The translations under genes were made by a program, and so were the position numbers. A model generated the notes under the pieces. It was not told the DNA's origin, did not search any database, and saw only the letters and a program-made list of their open reading frames with translations. DNA of 64,000 bases from Hydractinia symbiolongicarpus (Eukaryota; Cnidaria; Hydrozoa; Anthoathecata; Hydractiniidae): positions 24,802,501-24,866,500 of the forward strand of contig NC_079880.1 of NCBI RefSeq assembly GCF_029227915.1. The letters run 5' to 3'. Each line of letters opens with the position of its first letter. Position 1 is the first letter of the stretch. Below, one piece after another: positions 5,101 to 48,747 of the stretch.

Positions 5101-5621
5101 TGAAATTTTTCTTTCTACGACTGGTGCTACACATCCACCTAACCACACTTACATCATTTCTTCTGTGCGACCAAGATCTTCCTGCTTCACTCCCCATGTT
5201 TCACTACTGTACAACATAACGATGATTATAAGATAACAAGATTAAAAGCTGTCATGGTGTACCATTATGGATAACGAATCAACAGAAAAATACGATTTGA
5301 CTGTCCATCATAACGTGCTCCAGAGTTATGGAAATACCATTATATCAGAAATTAAAATTTTTAAAGCAGCTTTTATCGTTGACATTCTGCATAACAATCA
5401 ACACTTTAGAGCAAGAAGTAACAGCAAATATCAACTGACAAAGAATAAACATTTTTTAGTCGTATAATGAACTGATTATCTTTTTTGCCTTTCTTTAGCA
5501 ATTTTGTTGGTTTTTTTTCATTGTTTTTATGATTAGTTTTTTGTTTTATAGTTTGTTTTTTTTCCTTTTCCTGCGTTGATAAGAAATAGTGCTCAAGCTG
5601 GTCTTGTATACTGTAAACGAA

Positions 5622-6926
5622 AGAAAATAATTTACAAAGAGGTGGCAAGCCACCGCAATGATGAACTCAACCTGTTAGGTCTTTGGAAATAAGCTAGAGG
5701 TTGTACTCCTCTAGAGAAAATGCCTCTAAAAGCACAATTCTCCCTTTTTACAAGGAATTAATTAAAAAAATCTAAAAAAAATAAAAAGGACAAAAAACAT
5801 TTGAAAAGATGAACAGAACTTTAACCAAGGGCAGGTAGGTTTCGACCCATATTTTTGAACCTAAGTACACTGGATGTCTAGCTGGGTCACCTCGAAGAGG
5901 TCCGTGGACGGTCATCAGCAGAAACTAGACATTCCTATCTTCCTAAAATTAACTTTGACCACTTTCTGTTCAACTGTGCTATTCTTTGCTTTTAACTCAG
6001 GTAATAAGTGGAGTCGTTACTCTCCAAAGACAAGATCATGTGTGATCAAACCCCCCCTGCTAATATTTTTTTATTTTTTTATTTATTTATTTTTTTAACT
6101 GGGGTAATAAGTGGAGTTGTCACTCTCCAAAGACAAGACCTAGTATGATCAAACCCTCCTTGCTAACTTAATTTTTATTTGATTTTGTTTTATTTTTGAC
6201 TGGGGTAATAAGTGGAGTCGTCACTCTCCAAAGACAAGACTGAGTGTAGTCAAGCCCCCTTGCTGACTCATTCCGGTTAAAATATTCTTAATCTCAGCTC
6301 TTCTAAAAAGAAAACATATGACTCGTGACTGTTACTAAGGCGGTCATCACAGAAAATTACTGCTCTATCGTTGCAATGTATCCACCTGTGTACCATTTGG
6401 TCGAAGGCTATGGTTGTGTAGTGACCATTATTTAAGTTGCCGCAATGGTTGATAATAGCCCTTAATTGAAATTTTTTACGAAATTTCACTTCTCCATCTA
6501 CGGTTAAAGGTATGGAAAGGGTACCAGGGTAAGCAGTAATACGAGTGGCAATTTTTGACACAAGGCCGTTGGCACTGGCAAAACGTTTTAGCTGTAAAAT
6601 GAGATGGGAACCGCACGACACTACCTCTTTTTCAACTAGAGCAGTTTGATGAGCGTTGCAAACATGACACTAGTAAGCATTGGTGTCTGACAACTCCTCG
6701 CTTTCGAAGAAATTATCTAGGGAAGATTGTAACGTAGGGTGCAGAGAAAGTTGGATGCATGGTGCTATAACTTCTGAGGAGCTGGTAATATGACATGAAT
6801 TGCAAGTGGTTGATGTCTTGATGCCAATACTTAAAAGACTTCCAAGAAACGGAAAGTCTAATGACAGACCAGGTAGGAGATATTCAAGAACCTCGGGGAC
6901 GTCATGCTGAACAAAGATATTAAATG
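5622..6926 (-). mobile_element. LINE-USP copy E, 5'-truncated
   Basis: Minus-strand 3' part of the USP-bearing LINE, nearly identical to copy D (20093-21616). It starts abruptly at about 6926, inside the USP domain, where similarity to D stops. It then carries the C-terminal half of the USP, three 3' UTR repeat units (about 5998-6055, 6098-6165, 6200-6268) and the shared terminal block ending at about 5622 with the GGTGGC/GCCACC hairpin. High similarity to D and F suggests recent spread or duplication. Confidence 0.8.
6277..6905 (-). pseudogene. USP C-terminal half (copy E)
   Basis: The main open part (6277-6621) holds the USP His box region: HLILQLKRF, then NHCGNLNNGHYTTIAF with the catalytic His, then IHCNDRAV and SYVFFLEEL. 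Upstream, to about 6905, out-of-frame translation gives the zinc-ribbon Cys pairs, but one CxxC has become a stop (cacta where copy D has cagaa). The catalytic Cys box is missing because of the 5' truncation, so it cannot be an active deubiquitinase. Confidence 0.8.
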
Positions 6927-6929
6927 CAA

Positions 6930-10184: not shown

Positions 10185-10620
10185 AACTGGGGTAATAATT
10201 GGGGTCGTTACACCCAAAGACAAGCTAAAAGCAAACCCCCTTGCTAAGCTTATTTTAAGTTACCAGAGAAGAGTGAGCTGAACTCTTTACCCTCTGGGTA
10301 TTGACGGTAAACTGGTTCTGGAATGAACTAGCTGGAGTAATACAAAACCGCTCGGATTTACATTTTCCTTCTCCCATGACCCTGGAAGTACAGGTTTTAT
10401 AAACGTAATAATAAATGTGAAAGAAAGAAAGAAAAAGCGGATCAAAAGCGAACGTAACAAAGAATATAACATGAATTGTTGTTGAGAATAGGTGGAGAGC
10501 ATTTGCAAACCGCTCTATCGTTGCAGTGGTACCAAGAATTTGTGGCAGGATCCTTAACATAAGCCCAATAATGACCTGCAGCCAACGTACCGGAGTGATT
10601 AATTGTTGCTAAGAATGAGT
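10185..10620 (-). mobile_element. LINE-USP copy G, short 3' piece
   Basis: Minus-strand fragment of a second USP subfamily shared with copy B. Between about 10620 and 10440 it encodes NHSGTLAAGHYWAYVKDP with an intact catalytic His, then WYHCNDRAV. The 3' UTR (10260-10440) matches that of copy B at 13145-13300, including CTCTGGGTATT and TTTACATTTTCC. One unit of the family's 3' UTR repeat lies at about 10185-10250. Nothing upstream of the His box remains. Confidence 0.7.
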
Positions 10621-10693
10621 AGTTCTGATTAAACTTAAACCACCTTTATGCTAGAGTTAGTAACTACACCATCTTGAAACACAATAATTTAAC

Positions 10694-13144: not shown

Positions 13145-13970
13145 AACTCTTTACTCTCTGGGTATTAACGGTAAACTGGTTTGTATGAACCAGCTGGGGT
13201 AATACAAAACCACTCAGATTTACATTTTCCGACCCATTACCCTGGTACTACAGGTTTAAAGCAACAGCGAAATTTAAAGAGAGAAAAAAAACAAAAACAA
13301 ATACCAGCGGGTATAAAAGAAAACATATGATGTAGTGCTGTTGAGCGTTCTTGGATCAACTATGCTTATTGCCTTATCATTGCAGAGGTACTAAGAGTTT
13401 GTGGTCCGATCTTTGATATGGGCCTGCATTCAACGTTCCAGAGTGATTTATCACAGCTACTAAAGCATACTTTTGGATACAAGATGTGTCCGAGTCACTA
13501 GATATCAGGATATTAAGATAAGGATTAGAAAAGAAAAAACTTTTAACAAATTTATTGTTCTTAACTAGATGTTCTCCATCTCTTGCAAACCTTTTCAGGT
13601 GCAAGGATAGAATTTCGCTATTCCTCGAAGACGCAATTACCGAGAACTCTTCCTATATCCAAGAAGTAACATCTCTGCTACATCTTGCGGAGAATTGAAT
13701 TGAAAAGATATATTTCCAGAAAAGTGTTTTAAGTTCTGGGGCCTTGAGAAAGTTTGAAGGATCAACCGGGTTCAAAGAACAGTTTAGCATGGTTATGCTA
13801 AGAGCAATCCTCCTCAAAATTGGTGACAAACGGGATGACTCTGAAGCACTCTGGGACCATAGAGATGGAATAGTACTTAGTGCTTGCAAAATAACATTGG
13901 CATAGCACGTATTGCCTTTGTTGACAAAACCTACATTTACAAAATGCGTGCGTGGAAGTGATAAACGACC
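13145..13970 (-). pseudogene. USP domain of LINE-USP copy B
   Basis: Minus-strand USP relative. Upstream of 13889 the frame reads VGFVNKGNTCYANVILQALS, the catalytic Cys box. The domain middle is deleted or scrambled. The C-terminal part (13604-13300) reads LVAVINHSGTLNAGPY, with the catalytic His of the GHY box replaced by Pro, then, after a frame change, YLCNDKAI. The 3' UTR (13145-13300) matches copy G. The matching endonuclease part lies at 16807-17405, and the 2.8 kb between them holds a RAG1-like transposase on the other strand, so an insertion probably split copy B. Confidence 0.7.
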
Positions 13971-16806: not shown

Positions 16807-17405
16807 TTAAAAGGCCGTTAGATTTCTGCGTCCGGACAAGCTGAAACAGCCATGCTTAATTAAGGAGTCTTGAGACGAGTCTCTTGACTCCCTAGCAATC
16901 CAGACACAGAAAAAAGCTGTCATACTGATTTTACCAAAGTTTTTTGCGGCGGAATATGCCATTTTGTTGGAAAAACACAGCCTTTTCAAACACGACTTCG
17001 TTGTTCTTGCGCAAAGAAATCAACTCGCCAACCACTGCACAGAATTACGTTAACCAAGACAGAATATTTAGCGACTTTGGTGGAGAGCCAATAGTTTATA
17101 TTTTCTTCGCAAGGACAAGTGAGTTCGATAATTATAACTCGTTTAAGCTTATTTGAAAAAATACCTATATCAGGTCTCAGTTGTGACACAGCAATGTGGC
17201 CTGGAAAAACAAAGTTTGGACTAGTGTGAGCAACAACTATCCAATCGTTGGTGAGATGAAATATACATGTAACCTTTGTCTTCGATGTTGGGCTAACATA
17301 AGCACCTGCCTTAACAAAAGACGTGGAAGTACTGACAGGAATTGTTTTAAAGTGTTAACCAACTGCACTAGCACCGAATCGTGCTTAAATGTATATCTTC
17401 CCTGA
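16807..17405 (-). pseudogene. Restriction-like endonuclease of LINE-USP copy B
   Basis: Minus strand, frameshifted. The order matches copy A: GRYTFKHDSVL (end of the CCHC knuckle region), DWIVV, SQLRPDIGIFS and ELTCPCEENI (PD-(D/E)XK-like nuclease core), GWRVDFFAQE, then VWIARESRDSSQDSL. In R2-like elements this C-terminal nuclease nicks the target DNA. The frame breaks after the FFAQE segment. It is the upstream half of copy B, whose USP lies at 13.1-14.0 kb. Confidence 0.75.
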
Positions 17406-17477
17406 ACTAATTAAATACACGCAATCTCTGTATAATGTTTTCCAAAGAAAGGTTTGTTAAACATTGAAAAAATAAGT

Positions 17478-18625: not shown

Positions 18626-18904
18626 AAGTCAACTCGTCACAACAAAGCAACTGCAATGCAAAATCGTTCGGTACTTTCTTCTTAACAGCAGTATCAAAAT
18701 TGAAAAAAGCTCATTTTCTCCCCGCTAATTTTGTCTGGAGAGTTCTTAAGTATTTTTCGGTTCTTACCAATTCAACAATTTTCAATAGGCTACTGCAAGG
18801 ACTTCGACAATACCTGACGAAAGAGGCCGCTGAAAAGGTTTCCAACTTGATGACACAATAATCCTGACATAATTTTCATTTTTTGTGTGTTTTTTGTTTT
18901 TTTT

Positions 18905-19115
18905 TCCTTTTTCACTGGGGTAATAAGTGGAGTCGTCACTCTCCAAGATAGGACATGGTACAGTCAAACCCCCTTGCTGGCGTAATTTTTATTTGTTTGT
19001 CGCTTTTAATTTTACTGGGGTAATAAGTGGAGTTGTCACTCTCCAAAGACAAGACTACAAAAAAAAAAAAAAAAAAAAAAATAATAACAATAGTCAAACC
19101 CCCTTGCTGACATAA
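18905..19115 (-). repeat. 3' UTR repeat units of LINE-USP copy C
   Basis: Two units of the family's 3' UTR repeat, each running from GGGGTAATAAGTGGAGT to AACCCCCTTGCTG on the plus strand, at about 18915-18980 and 19015-19115. The second has a long A run inside. Related units follow the USP in copies A, D, E, F and G. Confidence 0.75.
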
Positions 19116-19169
19116 ACCGGAAGTTGTGGTGCTGACTGCAATTTACCTAAGCTCTTCAAGGAAAAGGAT

Positions 19170-19905
19170 ATAAGGTTGTACACCAATAAGCAAGCTTTGT
19201 TTCTAAATTTATAGAATGGTTAATTACAGCCCTTTAGTTGTAGTGCTTGCGACACGAGACTTCACCGTCTACAGTGATAGAACAAACCTTAGACACAAAA
19301 CCTTTGTTACAGGCGAAGCACTTTAATTGCAGAACTAAAATTGAACTGCACTCTGCGACCTCTTTTTCAACTGTTGCAGTTTGGTAACTATTGCAGTGGT
19401 GACAGAAGTACGAGTTGACACCTGAAAATTCTTCGCTCTCCAAAAAGTCATCTAATAAAGATTGTACAATTGATGTCAAGGGCAGTTGAAGAAATGGACT
19501 TACTTGCTCAGAGGTGCTAATATTATTGCAAGCCATGCAAGTAGTGCAGATTTTCACACAAGTGTAGAATAATCTACCAAAGAAAGTTAAGGCTAAGGAC
19601 AACTCTGGTATGAGATACTCAAGAATCTCTAGGGCATCTTGCTGAGAGAACGGATTAAAAGCAGCGCCCCTTGCATTAGAAACATGGCCTTTTAATGCAT
19701 TTAGAAATGAAGAAGGGTTCACTGGAACCTTGGAAGAGGATAATTTGCGTAGAATACTTACAAAACTTTTACCTAACGCCATATTGGAATCATTTGCAGA
19801 GATGGCTGTGGCAACTGCGGGTAACACATAAAAACATTGCAAGATGGAATTGACATAACATGTGTTGCCGAAATTTAGCAACCCGATTCTTGTGCAGGCA
19901 AGGTA
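19170..19905 (-). pseudogene. USP domain of LINE-USP copy C
   Basis: A 215-codon minus-strand frame (19881-19234) covers most of a ubiquitin-specific protease: Cys box LNFGNTCYVNSILQCFY with the catalytic Cys, FSQQDALEILEYL (QQD box), zinc-ribbon CxxC pairs CTTCMACN and CHHCNS, and LVLQLKCFA. A stop follows HYN, and downstream in the same frame RAVINHS is seen, but the catalytic His box (GHY) is missing. It is the longest uninterrupted USP frame here, yet lacks the His and so should be inactive. Frame upstream of the Cys box (IGL) continues, as in a fusion. Confidence 0.8.
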
Positions 19906-20092
19906 GTCGAGCTCTTTGTTACGCTCTGGGGATTCGTGTCCTTAAAGCTAGTGGTCGAAGTTTTATCAATTGAGAAATATGTTGTGGATCCCTACCAGCA
20001 TGTATCCAACACAAAGAATCTTGAGATAGCCAGATGTATAACGACGATTGCATAGATGACTCAGTAAGAGATTTCAGAGTGGAACGTACAAG

Positions 20093-21810
20093 GGAAATAA
20101 TTTACAAAGAGGTGGCAAGCCACCGCAATGATGAACTAAACCTGTTAGGTCTTTGGAAATTAGCTAGAGGTTGTACTACTCCAGAGAAAATGCCTTTAAA
20201 AGCACAATTCTCCCTTTTTACAAGGAATTAATTAAAGAAAAATAAAAAAATAAAAAGGACACAACACATTTGAAAAGATGAACAGAACTTTAACCAAGGG
20301 CAGGTAGGTTTCGACCCATATTTCTGAACCTAAGCACCCAGGATGTCTAGCTGGGTCACTTTGAAGAGGTCCGCGGACGGTCTTCAGCAGAAACTAGACA
20401 TCCCTATCTTCCTAAAGTAAATTTGACCACTTTCCGTTCAACTGTGCTATTCTTTGTTTTTAACTCAGGTAATAAGAGGAGTCGTTACTCTCCAAAGACA
20501 AGATTATGTGTGATCAAACCCCCCTGCTAATATTTTTTTTTAACTGGGGTAAAAGTGGAGTCGTTACTCTCCAAAGACAAAATCATGTGTGATCAAACCC
20601 CTCTTGCTAACTTAATTTTTATTTGATTTTGTTTTTATTGACTGTGGTAATAAGTGGAATCGTCACTCTCCACAGACAAGACTGAGTGTAGTCAAGCCCC
20701 CTTGCTGACTCATTCTGGTTAAAATATTCTTATCTCAGCTCTTCCAAAAAGAAAACATATGACTCGTGACTGTTAATAAGGCGGTCATCACAGAAAATTA
20801 CTGCCCTATCGTTGCAATGTATCAACCTGTGAACCATTTGGTCGAAGGCTATGGTTGTGTAGTGACCATTATTTAAGTTGCCGCAATGGTTGATAATAGC
20901 CCTTAATTGAAAATTTTTACGAAATTTCACTTCTCCATCTACGGTAAAAGGTATGGAAAGGGTACCAGGGTAAGCAGTAATACGAGAGGCAATTTTTGAC
21001 ACAAGGCCGTTGGCACTGGCGAAACGTTTTAGCTGTAAAATGAGATGGGAACCGCACGACACTACCTCTTTTTCAACTAGAGCAGTTTGATAAGCGTTGC
21101 AAACATGGCAGAAGTAGGCATTGGTGTCTGACAACTCCTCGCTTTCAAAGAAATTATCTAAGGAAGATTGTAACGTAGGGTGCAGAGAAAGTTGGATGCA
21201 TGGTGCTATAACTTCTGAGGAGCTGGTAATATGACATGAATTGCAAGTGGTTGATGTCTTGATGCCAATACTAAAAAGACTTCCAAGAAATAGAAAGTCT
21301 AATGACAGACCAGGTAGGAGATATTCAAAAACCTCGGGGACGTCTGCTGAGCAAAGATATTAAATGCACTTCCCTTCGCAGCTGAGATATGTTTCATAGC
21401 ACGCAAAAAATGGGAGGGATCAACTTGACTTCTAGAAACAGCCAAACTTTGAAGAACACCTACAAATGCTTCGCCTAACTTTGAGGTTGTTTTGCTGACA
21501 GAAATGGCTTCTTTAACTTTTGGAAGGTTATAAAAACATTGTAAGATTGAGTTTGCATAACATGTGTTTCCTAAGTTTTTTAGACCGCTATTCCTAAAAT
21601 GAGGGTTAGATGGCAATGCGACTGTTTTTTGGAAGACCTTGTAGCAAGTTTTTCGGGTTTTTCGATTTTACAAGATTTTGTGTGATTTGCGGAAGGTTTC
21701 TCAGAGTTTTTTGACTTCTTACATTCCATATTGTAACAGAAGAAACTTCAGGAATGATTGGGGCCTTTTCAGGCTCAACCCAAGTGGTAGAATTTCGAGA
21801 CATCCAGCAA
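20093..21810 (-). mobile_element. LINE-USP copy D
   Basis: Minus-strand 3' portion of the element: a linker frame (21803-21606), the whole USP (21616-20730), three 3' UTR repeat units (about 20465-20525, 20540-20610, 20640-20712) and the conserved end at about 20093 with the GGTGGC/GCCACC hairpin. Its 5' edge abuts the 3' UTR of copy A, so A and D sit head-to-tail. Copies E and F are near-identical over the shared part. Confidence 0.8.
20730..21616 (-). pseudogene. USP domain of copy D, nearly complete
   Basis: Upstream frame (21616-21299): SGLKNLGNTCYANSILQC with the catalytic Cys, then FNIFAQQ. A one-base change near 21340 shifts the frame. The rest (CNSC, CHVCNAYQ zinc ribbon, HLILQLKRFA, NHCGNLNNGHYTTIAF with the catalytic His, IHCNDRAV, SYVFFLEEL) continues to a stop at 20730. 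All USP boxes are present, about 295 residues in total, short for the family as is usual for a bare catalytic core. Apart from the single frameshift this is the most intact USP. Role inferred: removal of ubiquitin from a retrotransposon or host protein. Confidence 0.8.
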
Positions 21811-22142: not shown

Positions 22143-22745
22143 TTAAACTGCCTGGAAGAAAAAGACGTAGGATAGTTTGCTGTAAAGTTCCTTCCGAACA
22201 TCACATTGTGTCACAGCTCTGTCATTGCAGTGAAGCCACTGGTCTGTCTTTTGGTCTTGAACAATGGCTGTATAGTGCCCATTATTAAGAGAACCAGAGT
22301 GGTTTATAAGCGCTCTGATCTTAAAGTGCTTACGGCTTCTTACCTCAGGGCCGATGGTAAGAGGAAGGGATAAGAAGTCTGGGAAACATGAAACTGGCAA
22401 CACTTGTTTTGAGATATGACCATTTGACATGATGAAACGCTTTAACTGCACTATAAGGTGTGAACCACTGTTAACAATTTCCATCTCTCATGTTGCTGTT
22501 TGATGGGAATTACACAGAGGGCAAAACGACTTATTTTCTGTCAAAACCTCGGGTTGTAAGAAGAGGTTCAATGACTCTTGAATTGTGGGTCTTGGTTGCA
22601 ATTCAAGAAATAGATCATCAGTAGAGTGCGATTGGAAGCATGTGTCACAAGTGATTGTAGTTCTAGTACAAAACTGGAACATGGTGGTAGTAAAAAGCGA
22701 GTCTGTATCAAGTTCACTTAGCAAGTAACCTAGGATCTCAGGCAC
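22143..22745 (-). pseudogene. USP middle and C-terminal part of copy A
   Basis: Two frames. 22745-22488 has the zinc-ribbon part: CDTCFQSHSTDD and CPLCNSHQTA. A stop precedes 22484-22143, which reads GSHLIVQLKRFIMSNG, NHSGSLNNGHYTAIVQDQ with the catalytic His, LHCNDRAV and LSYVFFFQAV. Cys and His boxes of this copy are both intact; only small lesions (stops near 22487 and 22890 and a frame change) disrupt the reading. It continues the fused frame at 22890-23372. Confidence 0.8.
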
Positions 22746-22889
22746 ATCATGCTGTGTAAAAATATCAAAATTACCTTTTACTTTACTTATAGCATTTTTT
22801 AGGGCTGCAAGGAAAGCGGATGGATGAACTGGGACTTTTGAAGATGACGATTGGTGGAAAACATTCGAGCAAGCTAAAGCAAGAGGTGA

Positions 22890-23372
22890 CTAGGAAGGAT
22901 TTCCTGCTGAGAGGGCTACATTGAATTGCGGCAGGGAGTTTAAACATTGCAGAATAGAATTTTCATAGCAAGTGTTACCCTTATTTTGTATCCCACTGTT
23001 TGTAAGCATTAACTCTTTTGTTGACCCTGAGGATGTCATTTTCCTGTCAGTTATGTGGACAGGTGATTTGCTTTTGGCAAATTTGAAAGGTGACTTGCTT
23101 TCAGGGAAACTGTCTGTTGTTGTAGTAAGCGTTTCCCAAGGTTTTGAATCTCTGGCCAACCAAATATGGAAGGAACATTTCATTGCAATAGAACCAAGTA
23201 ATTTTAGAGTGCAACGAATTAACTTGGGTGGAAAACCTAGACGACGTAAACAAGTACGCACAAAATCTGAACAGTACCCACGAGCGCCAACCTCAACTGC
23301 GAAGAAGTGAACTGCCCAACCATTAATTTGTATTGTCCGCAATAAGAGAGTATTTATCAGTTTTCGCGTCAT
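22890..23372 (-). CDS. Endonuclease-USP fusion frame of LINE-USP copy A
   Basis: One uninterrupted 160-codon frame. Residues about 18-37 (GWAVHFFAVEVGARGY) are the conserved segment that follows the restriction-like nuclease in R2-like LINEs. Residues 38-80 (LRRLGFPPKL, FHIWLARDSKPW) are the LINE C-terminus also seen in copy B. Residues 80-130 form a Ser/Lys-rich linker. Residues about 131-155 (NKGNTCYENSILQC) are the USP Cys box with the catalytic Cys. The frame ends at a stop after SAGNPS, probably a later mutation because USP sequence continues downstream. This is direct evidence that protease and retrotransposon share a polypeptide. The nuclease core lies just upstream in another frame, offset by a single shift near 23330. 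Confidence 0.85.
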   Translation of the reverse strand: MTRKLINTLLLRTIQINGWAVHFFAVEVGARGYCSDFVRTCLRRLGFPPKLIRCTLKLLGSIAMKCSFHIWLARDSKPWETLTTTTDSFPESKSPFKFAKSKSPVHITDRKMTSSGSTKELMLTNSGIQNKGNTCYENSILQCLNSLPQFNVALSAGNPS

Positions 23373-24341
23373 GCAATTTCTCCATATTTTCTTCGCAAGG
23401 ACATGTCAACTCTATAACTATCACTGCCTTTGTCATACGAGAAAGTAACACAATATCTGGCCTAAGTTCAGTAACAGCTACATCAGGTGGTATTATTAGT
23501 GTTGTATCAAGATCACACATAACTATCCAATCTGAAGCCGAATGGAGAATGCCTATTGGAGGTGGTTTTTTCTTCTTTGCTGTGGAGTAACTACCAGCAG
23601 AAACAAAATAAATATTTCCAGGTTTGTTGGAGAGAGATGGTTTGTACCATAAGAAATCTTGTAGGGAGGTTACAAGTGTGCGTAACACAGTGTCATGATG
23701 ATATGTAAACCTACCCTGAGTTAAGGCAACTTTACAAGCTCCTAAAATATGGGGAACTGTACAGATGTTTTTTTTACACAAACTACAGCTTGCATCTTTT
23801 TGTAATCCCCAGCGAACTAGATTAATTGGTGAAGTCGTTGTGTCATATGTGGAGCCATTGCAAAATGAAAGTAAACATTGTGGCAGAGCCAAAAGGGTGC
23901 TCTAAGAAAGATCGTTTTTCACATCACTGCATCATTTCATCCAGTTGCCTTGAATATGGAGTTGCACTGCACGGGCTTGGAAAATCTCAGAGATGGTTAT
24001 GCGGTAAATGGAAAATGTCAGAGATGGTTATGCGGTATTTTTGGCATCCTTTAGTAAGCATATCCTTCTGCTTAATCAAACCAAAACCAGCTTTCCCTAT
24101 TTGATGATACCCAGCTACCTTTGTATATTAAAGCTGGCTTTCGGCAGAGCGAACGGCATTGCTTACATTCCACGAAACTGATTTTAAAGTAGGTAAAAAG
24201 GATGAAACACATGCATCAGCAGAATCTCTAAGTAATAAATGTCCGTTGACTTTTGAGGACTTTAGGATAAAAGTCATACTTTTAAAGGGTAGAAGACAAG
24301 GTGAGTTAGCTGAATATAAACAGATGTTGGTGATTGAATGA
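23323..24341 (-). pseudogene. RT thumb, CCHC knuckle and endonuclease of copy A
   Basis: The 23892-23323 frame has CSLCKKNICTVPHILGAC (C-x2-C-x8-H-x4-C knuckle), QGRFTYHHDTVL, DWIVMCDLD, VAVTELRPDIVLLS and VIELTCPCEENMEKL, with K and KY following: the PD-(D/E)XK-like nuclease of R2-like LINEs. Upstream to 24341 the minus strand is degenerate but opens with ITNICLYSANSPCLLPFKS, the end of the RT thumb, which joins in frame to the RT piece at 31242 once the DNA transposon between them is removed. Confidence 0.8.
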
Positions 24342-24349
24342 TGGAGCTG
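24342..24349. repeat. Left 8-bp target site duplication (TGGAGCTG)
   Basis: The same 8 bp recur at 31242-31249, immediately outside the right terminal repeat. Removing 24350-31241 and one copy joins the LINE RT reading frame across the site. Confidence 0.9.
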
Positions 24350-24582
24350 TCAACCTCGTCCCCAGGACCTCTTTTCCCTTTTTTGATATTGGGGATGGCG
24401 CGAAGAAGAAGGCCCTGGACCCGGCCGCTTTCTACACCCAGAAATCTTGGGTGTAGACTGCAGCGTCAGCACTTTTGCTAAATGTCGACAGTTCTTTATA
24501 TGGATATGTGACATCCATATATGGAGTAAAACTAAGAATTTAAAATTATTTCAAAAAGTGAACGGCGAGTTAAAGTGTTAAA

Positions 24583-25119
24583 ATGGTTCCGTTTTTCAAA
24601 ATGGACAAGATATTGCAATTATTTTGTAGATTGCAACAAACTTTTTTAATTAATAACATAAATAATATTATCTTAAAGCCACAGCAAGTTAAATGTTTCG
24701 AGCATCTTTTAAATGGATATGATGTTATTGGTGTTTTACCTACTGGATTTGGGAAATCCTTGTTGTTTCATTTGTTGGCAGACTTTTTGCCAAGAAAGAG
24801 TGTCCAAAATATAGTATTGGTGGTGTGCCCTCTTAATTCTATCATAGAGGACCAGTTGAAAGTTTTAGAAGTGAGAGGTATTGGTGCTGGGGTGCTTCAT
24901 TTGGAGCAAACAGTTGTGCCTGAAAAATTGTTTTCGTGTGATGAGAATGGTGAGTCTGAAATACCAATTTCAATTAAAAATGGCGAATTAAAACTCGTAT
25001 TTGCTTACCCAGAATCTCTGCTTAGTGTCAGAGAACGAGAATTGCTAAAAAGTTCTGTTTACCAACAAAATGTTGTCCGTTGTGTTATAGATGAAGCACA
25101 TTGTGTAAGCATGTGGTAA
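24583..25119 (+). pseudogene. RecQ-like SF2 helicase, first exon
   Basis: A 178-codon frame from the ATG at 24583. It contains a QxxxF-like entry (KPQQVKCFEHLLNG), motif I GVLPTGFGKSLLFHLL, motif Ia VVCPLNSIIEDQ, FAYPESLL, and motif II VIDEAHCVSMW, the RecQ-type DEAHCxSxWG box. The frame ends in a canonical splice donor (GTGGTAAGTA, about 25115-25124). No exon with motifs III-VI is found downstream; the next sequence belongs to the opposite-strand gene. So the helicase is truncated to its first RecA lobe. The exon itself has no internal stop, consistent with a recent deletion or with splicing lost by rearrangement. Confidence 0.8.
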
Positions 25120-25217
25120 GTAAAAACACTCCAGTGAATCATTTTTTTGTGTTTTTTTTTAAAAAAAGACAGGGCTGGCGAACACTTTTATGCTAGAAAC
25201 GAATTTTAAAATGTTTG

Positions 25218-25360
25218 TTATGCGACAATGTAAAACTTTATTTTGGATGTTGTCTCCACTTCACGAATCAATTCGCCTACCCTGACTTTGTCAATGGTGA
25301 ACTCAAGCTTCCAGTGTGTATTTTTAATTATTATAAACAAAATATTTTTTCTCTCTTTAC
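25218..25360 (-). pseudogene. Transposase 3' part, possible last exon
   Basis: Minus-strand frame ending TIDKVRVGELIREVETTSK and a stop at 25218. Taking out the TTAA-bounded segment 25361-26102 puts this piece in the same frame as exon 3 at 26342. It may be the end of the transposase gene or partly intron (a GTAAAG follows TTAA). Confidence 0.45.
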
Positions 25361-26102
25361 TTAACCCCTTTCCGCATAGCGTATCATATATGATACAGTC
25401 TGTGTTTTGTTTATCTCTGGTCACACTATCTAATTTTAAGCTAAATAAACTTGATATACGGGTTCTCTGGATAGTTCTTAGTAAGTTAAACCAAGGTTTA
25501 TATAAAATTTCATAATTCCCGTTTCTGAATACTTTCATATGTTTACAAGATGGCGTCTGGAAGCAAATCTTAAGGTCCATGTAAGTAAACATGTTTAAAA
25601 TCATATTTATTTTGATGCTACGAAGCTGGATAAATTCATACAGTTTATTTGTAGGTTGTTTATGTCTAGGAACAAGTTTTTTACAAGTTTTTCTCTATAA
25701 TTTCTTCATAAACTCCAGATTTTAGACTATCATATATGATACACTATGCAAAAAAAGAATATTAGCTAGCTATTTGCCTAAAAACGTGATTTCTTTTATT
25801 ATCTTTATTTGATACCCATACACACAAATGGCCTTTTTAGTTAGTATATTTGATGTGTTTAGCATAGTAATTCATTTCTAGATAATTATTTTTATTTTTA
25901 GCAATTGGCGTAAGATCATTTTATGGGCGAAAACCTGTCTGCGTTAACCGAGTACAACCATTTGTAAATGTTAGGGGTATTCCTGAACCAAACGAATCTT
26001 CTGATGACGATCTTGATTCAGACAGCGAAAATGAATATTACAATGCTGCAAACCAACAAGATTTAATAATTGAGTCAACGTCATCAGAATATGAATTGTT
26101 AA
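25361..26102 (+). mobile_element. TTAA-bounded piggyBac-like fragment
   Basis: TTAA occurs at 25361-25364 and 26099-26102. The left end continues CCCCTTTCCGCATAGC and the palindrome GTATCATATATGATAC, like piggyBac termini; ATCATATATGATAC recurs at about 25730. Near the right, after a splice-acceptor-like TTTTTAG, a frame reads GIPEPNESSDDDLDSDSENE, an acidic N-terminal stretch typical of piggyBac transposases. The right terminal repeat is missing, so it is a truncated element or a coincidence of TTAA sites; the acidic exon supports the former. Confidence 0.5.
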
Positions 26103-26342
26103 GTTGATACGATTTTCCAGAAAATTGGTGGCAAATAGGTGTAGATCTTCATTATCGTTATCACTTCTCATATGTCCTTTTAAAATTCTTAAATCAAAGT
26201 TATCGCCTGTTCCCCGAAATGTACAACCTGCTTTTATTTTTGCAATTGTCGAGTCAAGAAAATGCCCACCAATTAATTCCAACAAATTGGTCTCTTTTGA
26301 AGGAGACAAACAAATGCCAAGCTTGTTTAGTCGGATTTGCAG
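25971..26342 (-). pseudogene. Transposase exon 3 with GDN motif
   Basis: After an acceptor (TTTAG, 26343-26347) the frame from 26342 reads LNKLGICLSPSKETN, GGHFLDSTIAKI, GTGDNFDLRILKGHM and EDLHLFATNFLENRI. The order (hydrophobic RLN-like start, GDN-x-D, then H-x-F-A, then NRI) recurs in a large group of animal transposon proteins; I read the GDN Asp as a candidate DDE residue. True similarity ends near 26103 where the TTAA-bounded segment begins; the remaining codons are chance. It belongs with exons at 29579-30541 and 30622-30642. Confidence 0.6.
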
Positions 26343-26435
26343 CTAAATGCAAAATGTATGCATGAGATAAATTACACCTTTTTTATATATAAGCCTAGTG
26401 TATTTTGAGCACAGCCTTAACATATGCTTAGTATA

Positions 26436-29390
26436 AACGTACAATTACGGACACGTACAATTACGGACATTTTAGTAAATTAAAGTTTTCCACCACTTAA
26501 CCTTGTATTTCCAACTTTATTTCACGATGTCTTGACTCTCCTACTCAAAGCCGTTATGATTTAAAGGTTTCGTTCGATTTGCCTCGCTGTTTCATACCAA
26601 AACAATGGATTTAAAAACTCGCTTCTTTTCGCTGATTTTTGGTTTCGCGCGACGAACTTATTCTAACAAATCATTTTATATCTTATTAATCAATTATTAT
26701 TTTTTTATTTTATTTTATTTTATTATATAATAGCTATACTAACATAAAAAATATATATGGCAGATTTTTAGCGACCCGAAGTGTGTTTTTCGGCCTCTGG
26801 AAAAAAAGCAAAATGTTATGGCAAAATCACGCTTTTTTCTCATAGTCTGTATATGTGCGCAATATGATTAAACTTAAAATATAGTGTTATTTATGAGCTC
26901 TCCTTCTGTACATCATTTCTTTTTATGATTTTATGTTATAAAATCTCTTTTTGCTTCAATACCATTTAGCCATTAAGCTTTGGTGAAATGGGCCCAAAAC
27001 AAAAATACAAAAAGTGGTCCGAAGAAGATTTGAGTAACGCCCTAGCAGCAGTTAAGGATGGCATGTCATTACATAAGGCTTAAAAAGAATTCGGCGTTCC
27101 AAAGCAGACCTTATCCGACCGAATTCGGGGAAAGTATAGAACAACGAAGGCAGGAAGGAACACAGAAATGACACCGGAAGAGGAGACGATGTTAATTCAT
27201 TATATCAAATACATGGCTTATATTGCACACCCCTTAAGTATTTCAGCAATAAAAGCTTTTGCATGGAACATCATAAAACGAAGCAAGCGTACCAGCTCGT
27301 TCAACCGTGTCAGTGGTCCTGGTCATACTTGGTGGGACAGTTTCAAGAAACGTCATTCGCGAGAAATTACCCTGCGAAAACCCGACGGCCTCGAAAGAGG
27401 ACGTTCTAGAATGGCCAATGTGACTGTTATAAAACAGCACTTTGATCTTTTAAGAAAAACATTGGTCGATCTTGATATCCTCGATAAGCCAGATCGAATC
27501 TTCAATTGCGACGAGTCAGGTATCTCCATGGATGCTCGCGTTGGAAAGGTTGTCGTCTCAAGATCAACTAATCACCCCTACTCTGAGAGCAAAGGAAATA
27601 GGGATCACATCACTGCCCATGTCGCTGTATCAGCTGCTGGAGTGCCGTTGCCTCCAATGATAATTTTTGAAAAGGCTTTCCCATCCGGTCCTTATGCTAG
27701 AGATGGTCCTACCAATGCTCTATACGCCCATTCGCCAAACGTCTACATGGACATCGAGCTTTTTAAACAGTGGTGTGAAAAGCTGTTTATTCCTTAGACA
27801 AGATACATACAAAAACCAATATTGTTGATCTTGGATGGCCACGGTTCTCATCTCGATATAGAGATGATAGATATGCTAGTGGAGAACCAAATCCACTTGT
27901 ACTGTTAGCCCCCTCACACAACCAATATACTCCAGCCATTGGATGTGTCGATTTTCAAGCCTCTAAAGGTGCATTTCTTAAAAATTACAGATAATTTGAA
28001 GCTTGCAACCATGGGCCACACTGTTCCACTAACTGTGTGTAAAACAAATTTCACTGCGATATTTAAGGCAGCGTTTGAAGGATCGATGGGGATCACCACT
28101 ATTAAAAATGGATTTCGGAAAACAGGGATCTGTCCATTCAACCCTGACGCCATTGACAAGGAGCGATTAATGCCAGACAACAGCATTGATTTTATTTCGT
28201 CCGCTCCGAATGGAAACAATACTGCAACATCCACAACACCAGCAGTACCAGGTTCTTCAACAGGAGCATCTTTTAATTCGTTGCCCGGTGGCTCTTTTTC
28301 TACACCAGTAATACCTTCAACAGATGCTTCTACTCCATTGCAACAACACCAACCAATCTTCTCACTGCAGCAAGCCCTTTCACCTCCACTCCAACAACAC
28401 CTGTAAATCCTCTCGTTGCAGCAGGTATTATCCCAGCGTCTTTGGTTGATGCCAAAAGAACACCAGGATTATTACTAAGGTGAGAGTTGTCACAAGCGAC
28501 GAGCATCGACAAGCGTTTCGAGAGAAGGTGGAGAAGAAAGAGTTGGAAGAGAAGGCAAAATAAGAAAGGAAAAAGGAGAGAGAACGAAAAAAACTAAGTA
28601 AAGAAGCTCTGCAGTCCGAAAAAAAAAGGCAAAAAAGGGTTATGTTGAAAACCCGATCTGTGCAACAGAAAAGAACAATGATATCGTTCGAAAGTGATGA
28701 CAGCGAGTTGGATGACGGCCAAGAAAATGAGATAGTTGAAGAGACGGAGAGTGAGTACGAAAGTAGCAGCGAGAAAGAATTTGAGCGTGAGACGCACTGT
28801 GCTATCTGTAAAAGGTCGAACCCACCAGTCGCTTGCAACAAAATCATCTGGATTGTTTGCGATAAGTGCTTGGCATGGTTCCATGGCGTTTGTGCGAGAG
28901 CTACAAAGGGGGAATTGTCAAGTGACACATATTTATGTTACAGTTGTCGATTTGAATAAAAAAGGAAAATAAAAAATCTCGCTTTTTTAATGTTTTACCA
29001 TTTCCCGCTAATGATCTGTAACGACTAAAAAATGTTTTGTTTGGTCAATTTTTACGTGTAATTACGGACACTCTTAAATTAAGTTAAAACTTGTTGTGAG
29101 TCAAAAGTAACGTTTAAGGAAAGGAATAAATACAATATACCTGCCGCTGACCCTCTAAAATACAAAAAACAGTGTGTCCGTAATTAAACGTAGGTGTCCG
29201 TAATTGGAAGCAGGCAGTGCTCGGCTAAAAACAGCAATTGTGGTGAGGCAGGTCCAACAATGTTCGGAAAAATAGTTCCAATGTATAGCCAATAGATAAA
29301 TCTCCCGTTTAGAACCATGGGTTCATTATTTCGATGGATTTTGTTGTGGTAAGACGCAAAAGACCGTAAAAGTGTCCGTAATTGTACGTT
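26436..29390 (+). mobile_element. pogo-type element with TA duplication
   Basis: The 19-bp terminal inverted repeat AACGTACAATTACGGACAC (26436-26454; inverted at 29372-29390) is flanked by TA on both sides (26434-26435, 29391-29392), as expected for Tc1/mariner/pogo. The core ATTACGGACA is repeated in tandem at the left end (26444 and 26460) and again near 29058, 29180 and 29195, and could be the transposase binding sites. The element sits inside the intron of the surrounding transposon's transposase gene. Confidence 0.85.
26988..28959 (+). pseudogene. pogo transposase with C-terminal PHD finger
   Basis: Starting at ATG 26988: a psq/CENP-B-type HTH (EEDLSNALAAVKDGMSLHKA, FGVPKQTLSDRI), a second DNA-binding region (GPGHTWWDSFKKRH), then a DDE_1 nuclease: FNCDESGISMD, ILDGHGSHLDIEM and PPHTTNILQPLD give the three Asp residues. 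Then a Ser/Pro/Gln-rich linker, a coiled Arg/Lys/Glu stretch, an acidic region and a PHD finger (CAICKRS, CDKCLAWFHGVC, YLCYSC; 28790-28950). It has in-frame stops at 27081, 27795 and about 27908, and a frame change near 28400. DNA-binding, nuclease and PHD parts are otherwise all present, so it died recently. PHD-tailed pogo relatives are familiar from cnidarians. Confidence 0.85.
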
Positions 29391-29578
29391 TATACGCTAT
29401 GCTTATGATGCTTACATTTTTGACACACCAAATCTATTTTGGTTTGGAAAGAGACATTGGTGTTCTTGATATTTTGTTCCTTTTTATTTTTTTAATTGTT
29501 CTGTAAACTTTTAGGAAAATTTTATGTTCTATAATTGTTTTTAGATAAAAATGAAAGTATATATATGTTAAACCTTAC

Positions 29579-30541
29579 CTGTTTGCTGCATCCACCTTCA
29601 ATCAGCAAAACACTATTGATTCTCTGAATTAAACTGAGTTCATGCCATCTGTTTTTCATCAAGATTGCATATAAAAAACAATACTGTATTTTTAGCTCAT
29701 TCGGAGAGTCAGCAATATCACATGATTTACCTGACAAAGTATTGAAAATGTCAACATCAAAAGGAAAATTACCACTTCATTCCTTCCACAATTCATCTGT
29801 TGTATGGCTTGACAACTGTGTATAATCCTTACTAAGTAATACAGATGAGTTGCCTTTCCTTTTACACAGTTTCTTGCCAGCATTATTGATTTTAGTTGTT
29901 ATGTCCTTTTTGAGTAATATATCCATTTGCGGTACTTGTGTGATAAAATGTGATAAAGCAGATGGCTGATTGGTATGGATTGCTCTCTCAATGGCATTTT
30001 GCTGATATATATTAAAAGGTTCAGATGAAAGTTTGTCACTGTCTTTATTATATACAGATTTTATATTTATTGTTGATGTGTTGTTGTAAATATCCTGTGT
30101 TGCTATACTGTTGTTTGATTTTTCTTCAGATTTATTGTCAGAAACAGACATTTGTAACCTTTCTCTTGGTTGATTTAAACATTGTGTAGTGTCTAATAAC
30201 ACCTTTTTTTTGTCCTGGTCTTTCCTGGGTGAAAAAGTGTTCAGCCGCCTAATGGAAACTTTTTGTCGGAGCTTGATTTGATTAGTTTGACATGACCTTC
30301 GAAATTCCCACATTTTATTTATAAACGTGTGACAGTTTCTACATATTAACTTTGTTAAAAAATCCTCTTGTGTAATATCAAGTCCACATGTTCTAATAAT
30401 TTTTTGTTGCAATTGTTTTTCTTTTGCTTTATTTAAAAATATATTCACCATATGCTTTTTTTGGAAGGCTTTGGCACATACCCTGCAATGACATTCATCG
30501 TATTCTTTTCGTACATATAACTTCTTTGGTGTAGTTTGTAC
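29579..30541 (-). pseudogene. Transposase exon 2, Cys-rich ZAD-like domain
   Basis: The exon begins after an acceptor AG (30543-30542) and ends at a donor (CAG|GTAAGG, exon end 29579): 963 bp, exactly 321 codons. It opens KKLYVRKEYDECHCRVCAKAF, with the second pair at ICRNCHTFINKMWEFRR: a CxxC...CxxC module like the ZAD-type domain found in other transposases. The middle is low complexity and charged. The only lesion is one in-frame TGA at 29777-29779; reading continues in frame through FPFDVDIFNTLSGK to the donor. It probably binds the terminal repeats. The 3' neighbour exon is at 26342 across an intron now holding pogo. Confidence 0.65.
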
Positions 30542-30621
30542 CTAAAAATATAATAAAAATTTTTTCTTCAATTTTAAAAAAAATGTAAGCTAGTTATAGG
30601 CAAAAAGTATATATACTTTAC

Positions 30622-30642
30622 CTTCTTATTTTCTTTGTTCAT
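30622..30642 (-). CDS. Transposase exon 1 (seven codons)
   Basis: ATG at 30642 encodes MNKENKK and runs into the donor GTAAAG; a 79-bp intron separates it from exon 2, which continues in phase at 30541. Short, but the donor, acceptor and phase agree. This start is an inference from splice signals. Confidence 0.5.
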
Positions 30643-31241
30643 TCTGAATTAAGTTTTTGGGATTACCAATTTGAAAATACCTTGTAGAGTACACAAACCT
30701 ACTATTTCTCGCTTTATTACTCTTAATTATTTTATAGATATACTATCATCTAGCTAATCACAACACCTACATTGGCAAAATATTTTTACTGCTAGCTAGT
30801 ACTGAGCTTGCCACATAGTGTATATATATGATGTATATATTTGCAAAACTACATATCAACACCAAACCATTATTTTTCTTGTAAATAGCTAGCTACATAA
30901 ATATCTCTATTCATTTCTGTAGAAAAACCAATTATAACATTTTATTTTATATTTTCAGAATGAAAAAATTCCCTCTTCTTTTTATTTTATTTTCCATCCA
31001 AGTTTCTTTTCCCATGTGCGCACCAGACACTCAACCAGACAGAGGGGCTACCATTTTTGTTTATAACTTGATGATACGGGCGACTCGTCTCACTCGTGGA
31101 ATGTTTATAAATTTTAGGCATAATTAGTGAAAGTGAGGCTACCAATCATATTGCAAATCCGACCGGCGGGGACCAGGGCCTTTTTCTTCGCGCCATCCCC
31201 AATATCAAAAAAGCGAAAAGAGGTCCTAGGGACGAGGTTGA

Positions 31242-31249
31242 TGGAGCTG
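31242..31249. repeat. Right 8-bp target site duplication (TGGAGCTG)
   Basis: Partner of 24342-24349. On the minus strand it encodes part of QLH in the RT thumb of LINE-USP copy A. Confidence 0.9.
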
Positions 31250-31795
31250 TAACCATTTCCTGATCAGGACGTAAATTTTTCGTTCCAGTTTGATGACAGT
31301 TGACAAAGAAACTTCATATATCAATTTTGGCCACCGAGCCTTGGAATTACTAAGTGTTGCAGAAACCAAAGTTTATGAGTGCCTTTAAATGACAAGGAGT
31401 CAATTAATTGAAGAGCGCGTTCAGTTTCTGAGATAAATTTGTCAATAGCGGCATGATCAGAAAGTGAATTAGTAATGGTGCGACCAAGAAACCTAACAGG
31501 GTTTTCGTGAATCGATGGAATGGAGGGTGTCATATTCTTACACACTCCATTATCAATGACAATACTGCGGGACTTTGTTGCGCGAAACGACATGCCTGCC
31601 CAGTTAAGACCAGTAACACAGGGGTCAAGCAACTTCTGACAATCATGTGCTGAGCGACACATTAGAAATATGTTGTCCATAAATGCTTTCATTGGTGGTT
31701 GGGCGGGATGATTTGCAGCTACACAAAATTGATGATAATATTGATGGCTACCAAGAAAAGAAAAATCGAGAGGGTGCAACCAATATAAATACCTT
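31250..31795 (-). pseudogene. Reverse transcriptase part of LINE-USP copy A
   Basis: Minus strand: YWLHPLDFSFLG, then AFMDNIFLMCRSAHDCQKLL where motif C (normally F-M-D-D) reads F-M-D-N, a loss of one catalytic Asp. Then GMSFRATKSRSIVI (Lys of motif D), PVRFLGRTITNSLSD, and HLVIPRLGG. After one frame change WPKLIYEVSLSTVIKLERKI continues to the insertion site. It belongs to an R2-like, restriction-nuclease LINE group. Motifs A and B are not in the window: the piece is cut off at about 31795-31850 where copy F ends. Confidence 0.8.
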
Positions 31796-31850
31796 TTTCA
31801 TGCAAGTGCCACCCTAATGGAGAACAGAGTGAAAAGGATTTACTCCATAA

Positions 31851-32548
31851 AGAAAATAATTTACAAAAAGGTGGCAAGCCACCGCAATGATGAACTCAAC
31901 CTGTTAGGTCTTTGGAAACAAGCTAGAGGTTGTACTTCTCTAGACAATATGCCTCTAAAAGCACAATTCTCCCTTTTTACAAGGAATTAAAAAAATATAA
32001 TATATAAAAAAAATAAATAAAAAGGACACAGCACATTTGAAAAGATGAATAGAACTTTAACCAAGGGCAGGTAGGTTTCGACCCGTATTTCTGAACCTAA
32101 GTACACTGGATGTCTAGCTGGGTCACCTCGAAGATGTCCGCGGACGGTCATCAGCAGAAACTAGACATCCCTATCTTCCCAAAATTAACTTTGACCACTT
32201 TCTGTTCAACTGTGCTATTCTTTGTTTTTAACTCAGGTAAAAAGTGGAGTCGTTACTCTCCAAAGACAAGACCTAGTATGATCAAACCCCCTTGCTAACT
32301 TAATTTTTATTTGATTTTGTTTTATTTTTGACTGGGGTAATAAGTGGAGTCGTCACTCTCCAAAGACAAGACTGAGTGTAGTCAAGCCCCCTTTCTGACT
32401 CATTCCGGTTAAAATATTCTTATCTCAGCTCTTCTAAAAAGAAAACATATGACTCATGACTGTTAATAAGGCGGTCATAACAGAAAATTACTGTTCTATC
32501 GTTGCAATGTATCCAACTGTGTACCATTTGGTCGAAGGCTATGGTTGT
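31851..32548 (-). mobile_element. LINE-USP copy F, 5'-truncated
   Basis: Minus-strand 3' end almost identical to D and E: the last about 45 residues of the USP (TTIAFDQMVHSWIHCNDR, SYVFFLEEL), two 3' UTR repeat units (about 32230-32300 and 32330-32402) and the 3' terminus at 31851 with the GGTGGC/GCCACC hairpin. Similarity stops sharply at 32548. Its 3' end abuts the RT of copy A. Confidence 0.8.
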
Positions 32549-33053
32549 CTCATAGCAGCCCAGACAAGAGACATATGCTCCAAGCAACCAGGAACTTTTT
32601 CCATACATCCTTTTTTGAATGGATTTGTTAATAAAGTGGTTTTTCTGAATGATGTGGCTTTCTACGTGCTTTGACACAAGACTGAAAAAAAGTTTTCCCT
32701 CCACATTAAGGAGAACTATTTGCCGAACGTTCTTAAAGGTACTGTCCGATTAAAAAACAATATCTTTTCTTTTGTTTTATTAAGTATCAAAAATAACGAA
32801 GATTGCACTCTTAAACAACAAAGATTTATCCAATACTTAGCACCATCGTTTGTTTGTTTTGATCTTGCTGCACTAGCCTACCATCTTCGCGAACTTTCAA
32901 ACGCGGCAAAAGGACTGGGTCAATTCATTATTCAGCACATTTTTGCTTGTGACGTAGTTACCTGGCTTCTTATTAGGCGAACCCCCCCGACTTGCGCATC
33001 GAACGACTAAATGTTTATTTATATTTTTTTTCCTTTGTTTAAAAAAGTTCTTC

Positions 33054-39100: not shown

Positions 39101-39700
39101 GCATCCAAACCTGAAGGACCTGACCCTCCTTTTGTTGTGGGAGCCGCTCGTAGCACTAGCGGGTCATCAATAACGTCATAGATTATTGGGTTGACCGTTA
39201 CATATGGTCCCTGCAATGCATTGTCTTCATTTAAATCCCCTCCGATAGGATGTTTCTCTCTCAAAATTTCAATCGTATCGTCTTTTAGAGGCAAAACACC
39301 ACCAGCCATATTGTTTGTCAATAACTTTATAGCACCATTCACATTCCCTTTTTGCATCATATTCTTAAATCTTTTCGAGATTGTTTCAATGTCTTGTCGT
39401 TCTGATATTTGTGGAAGCCGAGATTGTAAAGCTTCGGCCTCATTCAGTAAACCTTCTATTTCGCCTTTGTGCCATAATTCAAGTCTTCTTTCAAGGGCTT
39501 TCAAATGATCTTTACTTTTTGAATTTTTGGAAGGTTTCTGCAGAAGTAGAGCTGGCATAATGCCATTATTAACTAGAAATTTAAAAAAAGGTTGCGAAGC
39601 ATTTCGCAAGTTGCAAGCAAAATTTTTGGAGTATAACACATTTCAAATAAACAGTTACAGCCGTCTTCCATTACTTGAAGACACCTCTGAGCGGGCGTCT
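36200..39700 (-). mobile_element. Second LINE: RT plus C-terminal nuclease
   Basis: Minus-strand non-LTR element. Upstream frame 39639-38869 is the pre-RT and fingers (PTTKGGSGPSGLDADGWRK, RLVPLNKRPGVRPIGVGE). 38965-38411 is the palm: AGQRAGSEAAIHAMR, VLLVDAANAFNSI (motif A), GTTQGDPIGMAMYAIG (motif B), FADD (motif C, intact). 38078-37590 is thumb and connector (PPRLGGLGLKN). 36721-36200 is a C-terminal domain: EARLDISAIGFWTPG, VFLDIRVFD, FTPLVFSTNGGMG, which I read as a restriction-like nuclease. Frames are offset by shifts near 38900 and 38400. It differs from LINE-USP in sequence and lacks a USP. The clade is not certain. Confidence 0.85.
36732..37362. mobile_element. 631-bp MITE with 5-bp TSD, inside the LINE
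   Basis: Ends CAGTCAGGGATAACCG and CGTTATCCCTGACTG; flanked by TTAGA at 36727-36731 and 37363-37367. Removing it joins the LINE frame from KKGGFITMR to LNEVCKDVRREPM. Both subterminal regions are filled with variants of AATTAGGCTA and CCTAAATAG in several orientations. No coding capacity. Confidence 0.9.
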
Positions 39701-48239: not shown

Positions 48240-48745
48240 CCGAATATCGTAACTTACCCGCTCCCCCGCGCCATAATTCTTCTTTTTTTCCGCGACCCTA
48301 TTTCCCGCTTCTTATCATGTTGTGCGTGTCTTAACCCGTATTTTGCAGACCACAGACCAGTCGTTTATGGATCGCTACCGCTGAAGTCGAAGCATGCGCA
48401 CTGCCCGCTGAGAATCGAAGCACTCTTAGCTGTGTTTTCACATTTCTACGAAATTCTTTTAAAAAATAGTAGCGGAATATAAATGAAGTATCGCTGGAAT
48501 ATTTATCTTGTTTCATGCAATCTGCTATCTTGCTAGACTTACTGACCTACTGTTGTTGTACAAAGTGTGTCTAGTGTGTTGTTGTTCTGCAAAGTCTGCC
48601 TTCACTCACTGAAATTTAAAACTGCTAGATCGAGAAGACTTTCAATACCTGGGGAAGCTGCTTTAGGTACCAAGGTACTTCGTGCTGAATATTATTCATC
48701 GTTCCATTGACTTAGTGTATTATTTTATTTCATGTAACTAGCTAA
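48240..48745. other. Gap between head-to-head Helitron parts
   Basis: About 500 bp between the start of the minus-strand Helitron frame and the plus-strand 2A leader frame. It is less AT-rich at 48250-48420. No Rep sequence found on either strand. An inversion breakpoint should lie here or at the minus-strand start. Confidence 0.5.
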
Positions 48746-48747
48746 TT

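Follow-up and report, generated by a model that had tools for sequence, protein, structure and literature searches.

A non-LTR retrotransposon family of Hydractinia symbiolongicarpus with a ubiquitin-specific protease domain in its single protein

A 64,000-nt stretch of the genome of the cnidarian Hydractinia symbiolongicarpus (NC_079880.1, positions 24,802,501 to 24,866,500; hereafter the window) contains degraded copies of a long interspersed nuclear element (LINE) in which a ubiquitin-specific protease (USP, peptidase family C19) follows the reverse transcriptase (RT) and the restriction-like endonuclease (RLE). Judged from sequence, these copies belong to a retrotransposon family that carries the USP in its single protein and has many copies in this cnidarian genome. 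We infer, with a probability of about 0.85, that a lineage of RLE-type elements without long terminal repeats (non-LTR) acquired a USP at its C-terminus early on and has retained it, most likely in the form of an active deubiquitinase; among the cellular USPs compared, the captured domain appears nearest to the USP8 type.

Within the window, the fusion is seen in copy A, where minus-strand positions 22890-23405 form a single open frame of 171 codons that covers the RLE C-terminus (FAVEVGARGYCS...FHIWLARDSKPW), a spacer, and then the USP Cys box (NKGNTCYENSILQC), with a match to Pfam UCH (E 5.3e-6). The initial annotation had described an unbroken nuclease-to-USP frame at 22890-23372 and named no strand; the frame is real, lies on the minus strand (the plus-strand reading has 15 stops), and extends to 23405. 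The zinc ribbon and His box had also been placed immediately after the Cys box: their order and frame are borne out, and UCH is matched again in the next minus-strand frames (22488-22889, E 8.4e-6; 22143-22487, E 1.6e-15), but the continuation is not uninterrupted, as both motifs lie in the frame of the Cys box behind stops, with one TGA and one TAG inside the match. The minus-strand frame upstream (23323-23901) encodes a CCHC knuckle and the nuclease motif RPDI...IELTCP, with a weak zf-RVT match under the Pfam cut-off (E 0.0019).

The remaining pieces of copy A were assigned by tblastn of full-length relatives onto the window, with residues numbered according to the relative P0002: residues 355-421 map to 32749-32548, residues 473-696 to 31850-31241, and residues 690-1432 from 24370 to 22152. 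The segment at 23341-23988 is 57% identical to residues 812-1025 of P0002 and 88% identical to residues 47-277 of P0001. In the RT, copy A has FMDN where intact relatives have FMDD, and its RVT_1 match is under the cut-off (E 2.5e-4). Copy A is interrupted by a 6.9-kb DNA transposon with a 10-bp target-site duplication (CAGCTCCATC), and the coding sense runs on across the empty site of this transposon (RKWLQLH / HSITNICLYS); the RT and the RLE-USP part are therefore one element. Approximately 52 target residues are missing at the insertion of another copy (copy E) into the RT, because the residue numbering leaps from 421 to 473 across it.

Intact versions of the same protein are encoded elsewhere in the 480.9-Mb assembly, in which the window corresponds to C6:24802501-24866500. 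The full-length query P0002 gave at least 39 matches from at least 33 scored candidates, and P0001, an RLE-USP relative, gave 76 matches from 65 candidates. Whether RT, nuclease, and USP share one open reading frame had been raised in the initial annotation as a point to check; they do so at ten genomic loci (L003-L008, L041, L042, L044, and L045), with frames of 1345-1426 aa, that of L044 beginning within the 5' part. All ten frames keep the acidic residues of the RT and the RLE (nuclease motif KPD or RPD), the CCHC motif, and the Cys, His, and Asp of the USP; in family 1, S replaces N in RT motif A. Six frames of 1426 codons are 99.7-99.8% identical to each other, which indicates recent multiplication. 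The USP stands behind the RLE in all 37 distinct places read (53 loci after merging of duplicates by coordinates), a count that is biased in that most loci came from USP-containing queries, best first. By script, the USP is on the same strand as the RLE in 36 of these places, with a gap of nearly always 91-190 bp; the match at the 37th (L053) starts past the RLE, and the USP lies approximately 200 bp behind the RLE as judged by coordinates. Four places picked since the match stopped near the RLE end likewise have the USP behind the RLE (4/4). Eight family-1 copies end at the same 3' position, and their 3' flanks differ. The order first read in the window thus recurs at 37/37 distinct places and in many database proteins; together with the ten open frames and a clade of fused database proteins, this makes the fusion a property of the element rather than the local accident that had been considered.

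PF00078 (RT) was identified in all five full-length members scanned, and D436, D539, and D540 of the RT are invariant in 18/18 aligned proteins, as are the CCHC motif and the RPD...E...K signature of a predicted nuclease C-terminal to the RT. UCH is C-terminal in the same five members (E down to 3.3e-36). Conservation of the Cys and His boxes, raised in the initial annotation as a point to check, is high, the catalytic triad being intact in 94/94 complete USP domains and the Cys of the zinc ribbon (CXXC...CXXC) kept in 92/94. The domain is predicted to adopt the USP fold, and the spacer between RLE and USP has a predicted local distance difference test score (pLDDT) of <50 in the structure model; the VIA-align comparison rows span the USP part of the model. 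Cellular USP8, USP2, USP21, and USP46 share the fold and catalytic residues and are the best matches by sequence and predicted structure, with about 20-32% identity in the matches listed, whereas the USP described here is fused to a retrotransposon protein. By sequence, USP8 predominates among the closest cellular USPs, the top two rows being plant proteins with several USP copies. In a quick tree with two long rows, a branch of support 99 separated 57 element USPs from 15 cellular USPs, a narrow sample, mostly of USP8/Doa4 type, left from 17 hand-picked out of 119 new rows after two multi-domain proteins were dropped, and including P0311, which is Helitron-borne. The USP is very probably an active deubiquitinase.

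Database relatives place the fusion in a wider lineage. The 866-residue read-through of copy A found 263 proteins, with many of 1350-1480 aa carrying PF00078 and PF00443 among the matches listed; the RT-RLE part of P0110 found 357, and the matches listed mostly end shortly after the RLE or have a longer tail with a USP. The figures that follow derive from the best 120 of the 263 and the best 120 of the 357. RT-RLE and RLE are matched in 216 of the 219 proteins collected: 117 of these have a USP and another 13 a partial one, 66 stop once the RLE is complete, and 20 are unclear. Near-full RT-RLE cover leaves 59 with USP (47 of them at least 1350 aa), 63 without, 10 unclear, and 6 partial. A tree was computed from 122 rows with the USP columns excluded; the 16 unclear or partial rows omitted include sea urchin, amphioxus, Dreissena, and two Hydractinia proteins. 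The tail after the RLE measures 0-37 aa in USP-less rows and 265-583 aa in USP-bearing rows. The USP label changes five times on this tree, compared with a mean of 40.8 after shuffling, and 59/59 USP rows fall within a clade of 78 (support 100). P0122 stops where the RLE ends and may be no more than a truncated sequence; when it was removed and the USP-less rows were thinned to 28 of 63 (87 rows in total), four changes remained and the larger clade stayed. A clade of USP-bearing rows alone was rejected in the 87-row approximately unbiased test (p-AU 8e-6). Given outgroups that lack the USP, we read this as a single gain followed by at least three losses. The distances of USP and RT are correlated among 58 of the 59 proteins, P0042 having been dropped (r 0.85; maximum of 999 permutations 0.22), and the USP evolves faster than the RT (slope 1.37). 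The history is best read as a single old acquisition of a putative deubiquitinase, its co-divergence with the RT, and several losses. In the DNA searches, two queries of viral contigs found no relatives, and genome contigs gave two distant matches in bacterial metagenome-assembled genomes (MAGs): L001 (28% identity over residues 200-1096) and L002 (24%). Two RT-USP proteins, P0040 and P0070, are filed under a Pseudomonadales MAG; this is probably eukaryotic contamination.

Several observations weigh against a USP that was captured early and kept in working order. Every copy in the window is dead, and among the ten open frames L042 has GNICY and DHY, and L045 is without one zinc Cys, both altered at conserved USP residues. 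At least three losses of the USP show it to be dispensable for copying; annotated Hydractinia proteins P0063, P0087, and P0098 are also without a USP, their models stopping at or in the RLE. None of the USP-bearing matches listed stands under a eukaryotic species name. Selection is not visible among the six near-identical frames, whose variable codons are 1 synonymous and 2 non-synonymous in the USP and 9 and 15 in RT-RLE, and L041 versus L042 gives dN/dS of 0.95 in the USP and 0.59 in the RT on few changes; between the two intact Hydractinia families, dS is saturated in RT, RLE, and USP.

As to function, the element protein would bind its own RNA, nick the target via the RLE, and copy by target-primed reverse transcription, and the USP on its flexible spacer would strip ubiquitin from the element's own protein or ribonucleoprotein (RNP), which would thereby be spared turnover driven by ubiquitin for the time needed to integrate. 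As the main role we favor this protection of the RNP, one of two roles suggested in the initial annotation, because the USP belongs to a general type, is joined in cis through a flexible tether, and can be lost without loss of mobility; we put it at slightly under even chances. More tentatively still, this would be an old animal LINE lineage with a true host-derived deubiquitinase, gained once and repeatedly discarded, that serves as a counter-defense against RNP decay or against ubiquitin at the cut chromatin. In the main rival reading, the other role suggested in the initial annotation, the USP might instead work at the insertion site, delivered by the RLE and stripping ubiquitin from H2A/H2B or repair factors in favor of target-primed reverse transcription; its position directly behind the nuclease, on a spacer of pLDDT <50, fits such a role, as does the proposal by the authors of the Ginger study that Ulp1 and OTU proteases borne by transposable elements, and likewise ubiquitin proteases, influence repair while transposition takes place (PMC2836005), but the losses show that integration proceeds without the USP, and we consider this rather unlikely. 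Another role, or none, is a little less likely still.

Other explanations fare less well. LTR-element proteases process their own polyproteins, and the NeSL and Utopia LINEs discussed below carry a Ulp1-like protease, so that the USP could be imagined to cut the element's own polyprotein; however, USPs cleave after ubiquitin, and Pfam (E up to 0.01) found no ubiquitin-like domain in eight USP-bearing proteins (the five full-length members, P0135, P0145, and P0172), which makes self-processing very improbable. That the USP is a functionless passenger would accord with its several losses, its faster evolution relative to the RT, and the lack of a sign of selection in recent copies; against this stand the near-complete retention of triad and zinc Cys at deep divergence and the long co-divergence with the RT, and we regard it as improbable. 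The initial annotation had allowed that the USP might be a nearby host gene family struck by unrelated LINEs, and the window does hold a cluster of several USP copies, every one of them minus-strand. However, copies D, E, and G have a common 3' end (...AAATTATTTTCTTT or near) followed by unrelated flanks, and their 5' truncation points differ, which is the pattern expected of a LINE; one-frame fusions are open at ten loci, many database proteins are fused, and RT and USP distances are congruent. The distance agreement (r 0.85) and the 3' ends exclude a host family, the chance of which is negligible.

Known elements resemble the family in part. Fish RLE LINEs without USP, such as the Tetraodon 'polyprotein' Q7T1J8 (P0180), align in their RT-CCHC-RLE over 99% of the query part at 41% identity and form an outgroup to the USP clade. 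Q7T1J8 is probably Zebulon, perhaps the nearest named fish element; Bouneau et al. are said to have described Zebulon of Tetraodon in 2003 as an RLE LINE with a partial tandem structure. Profile A2 (positions 170-713) matches R2 proteins in the PDB (6.3e-41), whereas no common insertion site like the single 28S rDNA site of R2 was seen here, the 3' flanks of family-1 copies being different. R2 is not known to carry a protease. In line with the initial annotation, nematode NeSL and one Utopia element, which are LINEs of the RLE type, encode a Cys protease that belongs to the ubiquitin/SUMO system (PMC4640811); theirs is Ulp1-like and N-terminal, in contrast to the C19 domain behind the nuclease described here, and Ulp1 had no match in the five full-length members scanned, in which the protease is the C-terminal UCH (C19). 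Ginger1 transposons carry OTU or Ulp1, and a Trichomonas protein with transposase_11 and C19 is mentioned by the same authors (PMC2836005); these mobile elements also encode deubiquitinase-type domains, C19 in one case, but their proteins are DNA transposases and not those of retrotransposons. A term search of a study of accessory domains in retrotransposon polyproteins found no mention of ubiquitin, USP, or OTU (PMC6338049), and a search for proteases in LINEs found none with a C19 protease among the matches listed from open-licence papers, which is no proof of absence. As far as could be seen, the C19 domain is new to LINEs. In Littorina saxatilis, P0311 combines Helitron-type and helicase domains (PF14214, PF05970) with a full C-terminal USP, and may represent another mobile element that has taken up C19.

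Nine family-1 copies, those whose frame reaches the N-terminus (L003-L010 and L045), are also arranged as head-to-tail partial dimers, in which a 3' fragment of the element precedes the unit; the fragments are 5'-truncated (112 bp to at least 1089 bp), and L009 is preceded by a full unit, so that L008 and L009 are two full tandem units. In the eight copies L003-L010, the junction has the 3' end ...CTTTTTCATC abutting TTATTGTTGACC. L044 has no preceding fragment, and in family 2 L043 has one, with none for L041 and L042 within the stretch examined. There is no LTR of retroviral type, and the preceding fragments of the nine copies are read as partial tandem dimers; comparable pseudo-LTRs are described in Penelope-like elements (PMC11167929). 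A promoter near the 3' end of the element would explain the tandem arrangement. By eye, no clear target-site duplications were found for three full-length copies.

The window contains at least six further copies (B-G) besides copy A, all on the minus strand (Table 1). Copies D and G, both dead, are 97% identical across 603 bp of USP. Copy B was initially said to repeat the order of copy A. This holds at 20092-19183, where the RLE end is followed by the USP with a frame change intervening; in copy B proper (RLE at 17422-16879, USP at 13937-13313) the order is kept, but the parts are 2.9 kb apart. An RT fragment of approximately 70 residues at 35417-35202 may be another copy. The 3' untranslated regions (UTRs) of window copies hold a tandem repeat of approximately 100 bp (GGTAATAAGTGGAGTCGTCACTCTCCAAAGACAAGAC...) at 5967-6292, 18886-19055, 20435-20734, and 32203-32424, and by eye the L003 family has a related stretch in its 3' UTR.

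Table 1. Copies of the element and inserted sequences in the window (residue numbers of copy A as in P0002; HTH, helix-turn-helix).
Feature	Position	Strand	Evidence
Copy A, first RT part (residues ~355-421)	32548..32749	-	tblastn, 70% and 56% identity
Copy A, second RT part (residues ~473-696)	31241..31850	-	tblastn
Copy A, thumb/linker (residues ~690-803)	24014..24349	-	tblastn
Copy A, CCHC knuckle (CSLC..HILGAC) and RLE core (RPD...ELTCP)	23341..23988	-	tblastn
Copy A, RLE C-terminus, spacer, and USP Cys box in a single open frame	22893..23405	-	Open reading frame, Pfam, tblastn
Copy A, remaining USP: zinc ribbon (CDTC/CPLC), His box NHSGSLNNGHYTA, WLHCND; stops inside	22146..22889	-	Pfam, tblastn
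Copy E, strongly 5'-truncated USP end and 3' UTR, inserted in copy A RT	31849..32548	-	tblastn, common 3' end
DNA transposon within copy A; 78-bp inverted ends (94%); Tc5-type HTH, DEAD-helicase, and PHD frames	24350..31239	.	Repeats, Pfam
Target-site duplication CAGCTCCATC, upstream copy	31240..31249	-	
Target-site duplication CAGCTCCATC, downstream copy	24340..24349	-	
Copy D, USP and 3' UTR, 5'-truncated	20090..21667	-	UCH E 4.8e-12 and 3.6e-13
Copy C, RLE end (IWLSQDS), frame change, USP (19935-19183), 3' UTR repeat	18880..20092	-	Pfam, tblastn
Copy B, knuckle end and RLE	16879..17422	-	tblastn
Copy B, USP remnants	13313..13937	-	Pfam, tblastn
Copy F, C-terminal USP remnant	10448..10633	-	tblastn
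Copy G, USP and 3' UTR, 5'-truncated	5620..6928	-	Pfam, tblastn

Elsewhere in the window, a different RT-like element (36200-39642, minus strand) has a FADD box and a nuclease-like RLDIS...DIRVFD, and by eye is another RLE-type LINE without a visible USP; Pfam gave no match on one of its frames (38869-39642). The plus-strand open frame 48742-49812 encodes GDIESNPGP, which we take to be a 2A-like motif, and matches PF04843 Herpes_teg_N (E 3.9e-11), presumably a deubiquitinase-like family; its product is perhaps another mobile-element protein or a host protein of the ubiquitin system. Behind this frame, at 50268-51089, tandem units of 177 bp encode leucine-rich repeats.

LINEs seldom capture a new enzyme domain, and this case adds to the acquisition of ubiquitin/SUMO proteases by mobile elements, beside Ulp1 in NeSL/Utopia and OTU/Ulp1 in Ginger. 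Annotated 'USP' genes in such genomes may be transposon pieces, one relative (P0092) being filed as USP22/27/51. The natural one-protein system and its USP-less sister lineages would provide a probe for the effects of ubiquitin on LINE proteins and target chromatin. A conserved and recently multiplied RT-nuclease-USP protein would mean that a retrotransposon gains from the removal of ubiquitin, and suggests that genomic parasites interfere with the protein-disposal or signaling system of their host.
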